From NCBI GenBank assembly GCA_902787595.1, contig CADAHD010000124.1, positions 1 to 6,917 on the forward strand: a stretch of 6,917 nucleotides of DNA. Direction: 5' to 3'. Positions 2,798 through 6,917 of this stretch are shown here, one piece after another. This DNA is from an uncultured Lachnospiraceae bacterium (lineage in GTDB: Bacteria; Bacillota_A; Clostridia; Lachnospirales; Lachnospiraceae). Below the pieces are notes generated by a model. It did not search any database, was not told the origin of the DNA, and worked only from the letters and a program-made list of their open reading frames with translations. Made by a program: the position numbers and the translations under genes. The first letter of the stretch is position 1; every line of letters starts with the position of its first letter.

Positions 2798-3985
2798 TCA
2801 CAGATACTTCTTCAGCGCCTCTGCCTTATCCAATGCTTCCCAGGGAAGCGAAACATCATCGCGTCCAAAGTGGCCGTAAGCCGCAGTGGGCTTGTAGATG
2901 GGTCTGCGCAGGTCGAGCATCTTGCTGATGCCTGCGGGACGCAGATCGAAGTTCTCGCGTACGATCTCGAGTATCTTAGTCTCGGGCAGCTTGCCGGTGC
3001 CGAAGGTATCCACGCGTACGGAAGTGGGCTGAGCCACGCCTATAGCATAGGAAAGCTGTATCTCGCACTTGTCAGCCAGGCCTGCTGCCACGATGTTCTT
3101 TGCAACGTAGCGCGCAGCATATGCAGCGCTCCTGTCCACCTTGGTGCAGTCCTTACCGGAGAATGCTCCGCCGCCGTGACGCGCATATCCGCCGTAGGTG
3201 TCTACTATTATCTTACGGCCGGTAAGACCGGAATCGCCGTTAGGTCCGCCGATAACAAAACGTCCGGTGGGATTGATAAAGATCTTTGTATCAGAATCTA
3301 CCATATCTGCAGGCAGCACGGGATCCAGCACATACTTCTTTATGTCTGCATGGATCTGCTCCTGGGTAACGTCAGCCGCATGCTGGGTAGAGATTACGAC
3401 TGCCTCAAGTCTCTTTGCCTTGCCGTTCTCATCATACTCTACAGACACCTGGCTCTTGCCGTCGGGACGAAGATATGAAAGCGTGCCGTCCTTGCGTACC
3501 TTGGTGAGCTGTCTGGTGAGCTTGTGCGCCAGAGAGATGGGATAAGGCATAAACTCTTTGGTCTCGTTGGTCGCAAAACCGAACATCATGCCCTGATCGC
3601 CGGCGCCTATAGCCTCGATCTGCTCGTCGCTCATTTTGTTTTCCTTAGCTTCCAGAGCCTTGTCAACGCCCATTGCTATATCGGCGCTCTGCTTGTCCAG
3701 AGCCACGATAACGCCGCAGGTATCGCAGTCAAAGCCCTTTGAAGAATCGTCATAACCGATCTCCCTTATGGTATCGCGCACGATCTTCTGGATATCCACA
3801 TTAGCCTTGGTGGTGATCTCGCCCATTACCAGCACCAGCCCGGTAGTAATGGCGGTCTCGCAGGCCACGCGGCTCATGGGATCCTGAGCCATCAGTGCAT
3901 CCAGCACAGCATCAGAGATGTTGTCGCAGATCTTGTCGGGATGTCCTTCCGTCACCGACTCGGATGTGAAAAGTATTTTTTCCAT
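2798..3985 (-). CDS. metK: S-adenosylmethionine synthetase (methionine adenosyltransferase)
   Basis: Makes S-adenosylmethionine from methionine and ATP, releasing phosphate and pyrophosphate; a cytosolic, normally tetrameric enzyme. The 395-residue product has the usual family length. It starts [18 protein letters not shown], with the ATP-site His at H15 and Asp at D17. The signature GAGDQG is at 127-132, the P-loop-like GGGAFSGKD at 271-279, GDSGLTGRK at 250-258 with conserved R257 and K258, and DPVLP at 221-225. No frameshift or missing motif is seen. The ATG at 3985 follows an AAGGAGGA ribosome binding site and matches the family start. Upstream lie a predicted promoter, a SAM-I aptamer and an intrinsic terminator, so its mRNA is predicted to be cut short when SAM is plentiful. 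It is transcribed away from murA and toward dnaE, with a strong terminator between metK and dnaE. Confidence 0.98.
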
Positions 3986-5637: not shown

Positions 5638-6915
5638 TCATAATATCTTTTTGATGCTCAATCCCGGAGTTTTATCAAGCTCCAGGAAACTTCCGTCAGA
5701 CATTTCAAGCATGGGTTTTGACAGGCGCTGTTTATTTATCCAGCGTACTGTTCCCGTGCGTCCGTCACTCAGCAGAACGCGGTTATCTATATATGTATTT
5801 ACCACGTTCTCGAGGAATTTCATGATATAGGGGATCTCGTACTTCTGCAGCCCCTCTTCCTCAAATATCTCTATAACTTTGAAAGGACACATTCCTTCGC
5901 GGTATACTCGGTTGGCGGTCATGGCGTCATAAACATCCGCTATGGCCACTATCTTTGCGAACCCATCGATCTTATCCCTGGTCAGCCTCATGGGATATCC
6001 GCTTCCGTCGCACTTCTCATGGTGCTCTAAAGCCGACAGCTTGATATGATCGCTTATATTCTGGTTTTTTAATATATTATAGCCCTCTATCGGATGGGAC
6101 TTGATAGCCGCATATTCCGCATCCGTAAGCTTGCCGGGCTTTTTGATTATGCTGTCGGGTATCTTGAGCTTTCCTATGTCATGCATCATGCCGCAGGCCG
6201 TAGCCAGCTTGACATTTTCTTCATCGAATCCCAGCCATCTTGCAAACACGTTGCAGATCATGGCCACATTCATGCTGTGTGCATATGTCAGGTCATCAAA
6301 ATCGCGCATATTATGAAGCATGTCGAATACGCCGAAGGTATTGCCCTGGGCGCTGATTATGCGCATCGTATCCCCTATCATATTGTCCACGTTTATGGGG
6401 GTATTCTTCTCGACTATATCATTCAGATTGGTGCGCAGTCCCTCGACATTCTTTGAAAACGACTGCTTGAACGCCTGAAACTCCTGACTGGCTTTGAGTT
6501 TTTCGAAATGTGAAGGCTCCTCCTGCTGATTTACCTGAATATCGGCATCCTCTTTCACATCTATGCCTGTCAGGACGCTCATCAGTGAATCGGCAGCATC
6601 CGATAAAGATGCGGGATCCATTCCGCCAAACTTGCTCAGATCCGGTTCGTCATCTTTAATCTCTTCTATCTCATAACCTACCGGATCCTCTATACGTATA
6701 TCATATATCTCATAGGCCTCCAGCCTGGCTATAGCCTTTTCCGTGAGTACATAACCCTTCGGAAAGACCAGCTGATTGCCGTTGGCGATGACATCACTGG
6801 CCACCACCATGCCTGCCTTGGAACAGACAGTTTCAGCGATAAACGCAGCGCCTTGGCGCAGCAAAGTGAAGGTCATGGCAGGAGGCGCGCCCATCACGCA
6901 GGAGTTTGCCGACAA
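5638..6915 (-). CDS. HD-GYP domain protein, predicted cyclic-di-GMP phosphodiesterase; start unresolved
   Basis: Predicted to hydrolyse cyclic-di-GMP. Numbering from a TTG at 6915 (425 residues), an N-terminal domain common in this family spans about 35-77 (GMVVASDV, then LVFPKGYVLTEKAIARL), an acidic linker spans about 80-135, and the HD-GYP domain about 190-345. Canonical motifs are present: H213 (AHSMNV), HDIGK with H245-D246, H274 (SHP), HHE at 298-300, DGSGYP at 303-308 and D327/D330 in ADVYDAMTANR. A small C-terminal domain (about 370-425) ends in DGSFLELDKTPG. No membrane segment or signal peptide is seen, so it is probably cytosolic. The frame stays open to the right edge. No start codon between 6810 and 6915 has a convincing ribosome binding site, and this stretch is antisense to a corrinoid-protein reading frame. 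The true N-terminus is therefore probably missing, and residues before about 35 may not be native. Confidence 0.85.
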   Translation of the reverse strand: MSANSCVMGAPPAMTFTLLRQGAAFIAETVCSKAGMVVASDVIANGNQLVFPKGYVLTEKAIARLEAYEIYDIRIEDPVGYEIEEIKDDEPDLSKFGGMDPASLSDAADSLMSVLTGIDVKEDADIQVNQQEEPSHFEKLKASQEFQAFKQSFSKNVEGLRTNLNDIVEKNTPINVDNMIGDTMRIISAQGNTFGVFDMLHNMRDFDDLTYAHSMNVAMICNVFARWLGFDEENVKLATACGMMHDIGKLKIPDSIIKKPGKLTDAEYAAIKSHPIEGYNILKNQNISDHIKLSALEHHEKCDGSGYPMRLTRDKIDGFAKIVAIADVYDAMTANRVYREGMCPFKVIEIFEEEGLQKYEIPYIMKFLENVVNTYIDNRVLLSDGRTGTVRWINKQRLSKPMLEMSDGSFLELDKTPGLSIKKIL

Positions 6916-6917
6916 GA
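6788..6917 (+). pseudogene. Fragment of a corrinoid (vitamin B12-binding) methyltransferase protein, cut by right edge
   Basis: The plus-strand frame beginning at ATG 6788 reads SLATTMPALEQTV, later SKVKVMAGGAP, then ITQEFADK at the edge. This matches, in order and spacing, the TTTMPAM, DKVKVMVGGAP and TQEFADEIGADGY block near the C-terminus of MtaC/MtbC/MtmC-like corrinoid proteins, recognised from memory. That block is normally preceded by a helical domain and a DxHDIGKN cobalamin motif. Here a TGA stop lies at 6773-6775 and no such motif exists in any plus-strand frame upstream, where the DNA instead encodes HD-GYP on the other strand. It is therefore a 5'-truncated piece. No ribosome binding site precedes the ATG. 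It may be a gene remnant at a rearrangement point or an assembly join. Confidence 0.7.

Follow-up and report, generated by a model that had tools for sequence, protein, structure and literature searches.

A probable technical chimera of HD-GYP and corrinoid-protein genes at the right-hand end of a Lachnospiraceae sequence

The window, the whole stretch of 6,917 nucleotides analysed here from an uncultured Lachnospiraceae bacterium, carries on its minus strand an HD-GYP domain protein gene (5638 to 6819), and the sequence of this gene meets, within 6797 to 6819, an interior segment of a gene for a methyltransferase corrinoid (B12-binding) protein read on the plus strand. This join is absent from the relatives examined. 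Very probably the window ends on the right in a technical chimera, in which a short stretch of another organism's corrinoid gene became linked to HD-GYP sequence through a short antiparallel shared word. The earlier note had proposed a breakpoint between the two readings, and both homologies proved to be real and to meet where it had put them.

The HD-GYP gene and its missing start

An open reading frame of 425 amino acids on the minus strand (5641-6915) matches the Pfam families PF13487 (HD_5, 94.8 bits against a cut-off of 27.2) and PF01966 (HD, 66.9 bits against a cut-off of 22), and its translation contains HDIGK and HHEKCDGSGYP, which we take to be the HD and GYP motifs. The family named in the earlier note for this strand is thus right, and the reading extends six bases beyond the end it had given, to 6819 instead of 6813. 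Homologues were listed as the best 120 of at least 1,164 proteins passing E 1e-100, among at least 7,998 scored candidates. In these 120 the match starts between residues 28 and 38 of the frame, at residue 35 in 85 of them, and none aligns upstream of residue 28. The nearest three listed proteins (P0005, P0006 and P0007, recorded from 3, 1 and 4 contigs) begin to match at residue 33, the K codon at 6817-6819, and are identical to the window frame at 388, 387 and 387 of 393 residues. At 98-99% identity they are presumably of the same species as the window. Past 6819 they continue into a normal start, MKHVRTEVL followed by KAGMVVA, and read MKHVRTEVLKAGMVVASD, where the corresponding region of the window frame reads ETVCSKAGMVVASD. 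The N-terminus is MKHV in 101 of the 120 listed homologues. Compared with the HD-GYP proteins of Lachnospiraceae (PF13487/PF01966; P0005-P0010), residues 33-425 of the frame align to P0005 without a gap, but the window frame lacks the first nine residues and the start codon that these proteins have of their own, and unrelated sequence stands in place of MKHVRTEVL. The listed start, a TTG at 6913-6915, lies inside the stretch without HD-GYP homology, in agreement with the earlier remark that the frame has no credible start.

The same limit was seen at the DNA level. Twenty-four related loci were fetched, of which 23 cover the HD-GYP N-terminus, the other (L021) having matched residues 100-390 only. 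In 23/23 of them an ATG precedes the position of the K codon by 27 nt. From the K codon onward, 16-26 of 30 bases agree with the window in these loci; over the 30 bases before it the agreement is 5-9 of 30, near chance. The nearest genome contig (L001, from an uncultured Lachnospiraceae bacterium) is collinear with the window, at 86.7% identity in a single alignment spanning 6,862 columns. This alignment begins at base 6819, which is position 99 when the window is reversed. In bins of 20 bases, identity to this contig is 17-19 of 20 in the seven bins that cover 6678-6817, and falls to 4-7 of 20 between 6818 and the window edge. The starting points of the homologues, the N-terminal loci and this drop in identity together indicate that the HD-GYP sequence ends at 6819. 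The earlier note had suggested looking among relatives for the same N-terminus through 6915; it was found in 0 of the 23 loci and 0 of the 120 listed proteins.

To the left of the HD-GYP gene, names read from the translations give dnaE at the left end of the window (minus strand, cut by the edge), metK (2798-3985, minus strand, S-adenosylmethionine synthetase) and, between metK and the HD-GYP gene, murA on the plus strand. A SAM riboswitch (RF00162, 4094-4206, minus strand, 78 bits) lies upstream of metK, the arrangement expected for a riboswitch 5' of this gene. Pieces aligned by blastn placed metK downstream of the HD-GYP gene in L001-L006, and upstream of and divergent to it in L008-L013 and L019; dnaE is also upstream in L008, L009, L011 and L019, and murA takes this position in L018 and L020. 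L001 has a LysM-G5-M23 peptidase gene next to the HD-GYP gene on its upstream side, and L003, judged by eye, has the same peptidase there. Rumen or omasum samples are named for many of the 23 related loci other than L001. Two further observations concern these loci. A 28-bp word that separates dnaE from the metK end (2767-2794) is present once in the window and twice in L001 (4698-4725 and 8806), one L001 copy being exact and the other having one mismatch; the exact copy adjoins the HD-GYP gene just upstream. The word is absent from the other 23 loci (L002-L024) with up to three mismatches allowed, and resembles a small intergenic repeat dispersed in the species group. The MAG of isolate RUI117 contributes two HD-GYP relatives, L005 with 81% and L015 with 80% identity to the window. 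They lie on separate contigs, for which the contig names state multiplicities of 35 and 14, and because these differ, the bin may be mixed.

The corrinoid-protein arm and the junction

From 6797 the plus strand reads LATTMPALEQTVSAINAAPWRSKVKVMAGGAPITQEFADK in a frame of 40 residues that is open over 6797-6916. These residues match the NCBIfam models MtgC_2 (E 8.3e-7), MtbC (1.9e-6), TIGR02370 (2.4e-6) and a second MtgC model (2.5e-4), the alignment covering about positions 144-191 of methyltransferase corrinoid proteins. The scores, 20.6-28.7 bits, do not reach the family cut-offs of 215.3-370, and lie far below them because only 40 residues of a protein of about 200 are present. Matches were also found to the PDB entries 1y80 (E 9.7e-7) and 7xcn (E 0.0011), and weakly to the Pfam B12-binding family (E 0.022, 15 bits, under the cut-off of 32.1). 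The strand opposite the corrinoid segment matches no Pfam family at E 1. Among database proteins of about 22-70 residues, to which the candidates of that search were limited, three are 88-89% identical to the segment (E 1e-13 to 4.8e-12). The profile search, seeded with members of the family, scored at least 8,000 proteins, and of the best 120 corrinoid proteins listed P0230 is the closest (87.5% over 40 residues); overall, identity between the arm and the closest homologues listed is 85-89%. The corrinoid similarity that the earlier note had read from LATTMP at 6797 onward, and had wished to see checked against protein databases, is therefore borne out by the NCBIfam models, 1y80 and the 88-89% identical proteins.

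Full-length homologues read SALLTTTMP and the window reads MTSLATTMP; this change from SAL to MTS ahead of LATTMP indicates that corrinoid homology stops at 6797. The L-x-TTMP motif was found in 120 of 123 homologues, and x is T in all 120; in the window it is A (codon 6800-6802), and base 6800, which lies behind the A-for-T change, probably belongs to the HD-GYP side. Within the motif M-x-GGAP the arm has A, whereas the homologues have V (120/123) or I (3/123), and the A may be an error or a variant. DxHxxG is the cobalamin-binding motif of these proteins. It does not occur in the 40 residues present, and the homologues carry it upstream of the segment (GDLHDIGKN in A1). Against the TIGR02370/MtgC/MtbC corrinoid proteins, 39 window residues match TIGR02370 positions 146-184 of 197; unlike the full proteins, the window has neither the N-terminal domain nor the first part of the B12-binding domain, and the window edge truncates the C-terminus. 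The GC content of the arm is 0.582, against 0.514 to its left, but 98-bp pieces spread widely around a mean of 0.513 (s.d. 0.069, maximum 0.663), so that the value is not diagnostic.

HD-GYP homology thus reaches 6819 from the left, and corrinoid homology reaches 6801 from the right, or 6797 with one mismatch. These identity limits define a junction zone compatible with both genes of 19 bp (6801-6819), or 23 bp (6797-6819) with the mismatch at 6800, in which KAGMVVAS and LATTMPAL are encoded antiparallel. This is somewhat longer than the stretch of about 15 bp that the earlier note had given as satisfying both families. Beyond it the foreign arm proper (6820-6917, plus strand), delimited by NCBIfam, PDB and homologue identity, runs off the edge: 98 bp past 6819, which would correspond to about one short read. 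On account of the odd length of the window, its edge is assumed to be the contig end.

We also considered whether the junction microhomology is the longest word common to both genes, using 20 corrinoid genes as stand-ins for the actual parent. With these, the exact run in the junction register is 5-13 bp. It is the longest same-orientation shared word in two of the 20 (L065, 12 bp; L066, 13 bp); in the remaining 18 the longest such word is 9-10 bp and located elsewhere, and in the opposite orientation the longest shared words are 8-13 bp. The proposal was rejected, as it holds in 2/20 stand-ins only, and for the same reason the word test alone does not favour the junction register; the short exact runs count against a chimera formed on a shared word.

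Searches for a parent of the arm

Thirty-five genomes of the genus of L001, many of them MAGs and possibly incomplete, were searched for a corrinoid gene like the arm. At E 1e-3, TIGR02370 matches were found in 33/35 (34 matches in all), but the family cut-off was passed by 0/35, compared with 1 of 14 control genomes. Thirty of the 34 matches sit in frames of 802-876 residues, which we read, from their length, as MetH. The other four frames have 200, 203, 240 and 555 residues. The 200-residue frame is cut by a contig end, and those of 203 and 240 residues overlap the end of separate upstream frames of 680 and 616 residues that, by eye, read like the start of MetH; for these reasons all three, 33-44% identical to the arm, look like cut or broken MetH. 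Full-length P0230 gave no match above 41% identity in the genus. Taken together, the TIGR02370 and P0230 searches indicate that a gene like the arm is not seen in these genomes.

A same-genome partner was sought with the 40 residues in the genomes of 12 relatives, selected among the 24 loci fetched, and rejected, since 12/12 gave weak matches only (best E 0.0048). These fall at 15 places with 34-44% identity, 11 of them in frames of 827-868 residues, again read as MetH from length, and four in frames of 105-111 residues. When DNA 6790-6917 was compared with seven of these 12 genomes at E 10, the best place was the HD-GYP start of L001 itself (E 0.003), and the other matches were taken for short chance matches. 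The arm DNA, searched without a positive control, matched 0/35 genus genomes at E 1e-4.

In the wider family, DNA 6797-6917 matched one of 397 genomes at E 1e-8, with 82% identity over 56 bp. The protein segment matched in 105/299 family genomes at E 1e-3, many of the matches lying in frames of MetH length; four genomes carry frames of 214-221 residues with 70-73% identity to it, and frames of corrinoid-protein length elsewhere in the family are 60-73% identical to the arm. A threshold of E 1e-12 was passed in 9/299 family genomes and in 0/391 genomes drawn from the class, the latter searched without a positive control, which makes another member of the Lachnospiraceae in the same community the probable donor. 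The names of the homologues cannot tell the donor, because the listing covered the best 120 of at least 8,000 scored proteins and the profile had been seeded with family members. A plasmid search returned 10 records, all below 60% identity, and the family, class and plasmid searches did not find the parent gene of the arm.

Origin of the join

The earlier note had named a real inversion or deletion and a chimeric sequence end as the two alternatives; these are the right ones, and the evidence favours the chimera. A rearrangement or insertion in this strain would have fused a start-less HD-GYP gene to a corrinoid gene in the opposite orientation, and relatives do differ in gene order at this locus, metK being upstream in some and downstream in others. 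However, the nearest proteins are intact, no genome of the L001 genus set passes the corrinoid-family cut-off, and the arm stops at the window edge after about 98 bp, so we regard such an event as very unlikely. Its more specific form, in which the strain gained a corrinoid gene that its genus was not seen to carry, with loss of the HD-GYP start through the insertion, is highly improbable. That two functional genes truly overlap in antisense deserves almost no credence: both frames are open across 6797-6915, but HD-GYP homology is lost right of 6819 and corrinoid homology left of 6797, and the pair was seen in 0/23 relatives covering the HD-GYP start.

The normal N-terminus of the nearest proteins, the absence of a family-level corrinoid match in the 35 genomes and an edge arm of read length instead favour a technical chimera. 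A piece of another organism's corrinoid gene would have become attached to HD-GYP sequence through a short word common to both, either in the assembly graph (a misassembly) or through a chimeric read or library molecule, and this one event would cover the short dual-compatible word, the 98-bp foreign arm and its position at the edge. Mis-joins by k-mer assemblers have been described. The join is lacking in the three nearest proteins, whose same-species status is suggested by their 98-99% identity. A metagenome-assembly study reports for a mock community that chimeric sequences lay at the ends of contigs in every case, and it names 21 as the smallest of a canonical k-mer set (PMC8172020). With chimeric contig ends of short-read metagenome assemblies the window has in common a foreign arm at its end and a join on a short shared word (compare PMC8172020). 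If the sample had been amplified, the technical chimera could also have arisen within one genome by whole-genome amplification (MDA), if a displaced 3' end found a short complementary word in an inverted template and was primed there anew. The inverted orientation of the join and its place on a short word that suits both genes would fit this unlikely sub-case, and in one study more than 85% of MDA rearrangements were inverted with deletions and more than 70% of junctions were primed at 2-21 nt (PMC1855051). Yet the mechanism favours the same molecule, and no such corrinoid gene was found in the genus of L001.

Most likely, then, the last ~98 bases were added through an error in sequencing or assembly, and the antisense overlap would be an artefact rather than biology; we saw no new biology in the HD-GYP/corrinoid overlap. 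Its significance lies in quality control: the 425-residue call would burden the HD-GYP protein with 32 false residues where nine true ones belong, and the arm could falsely suggest a B12-dependent methyltransferase system in the genus. A real join would amount to the disruption of a gene at strain level, and its interest would be modest.
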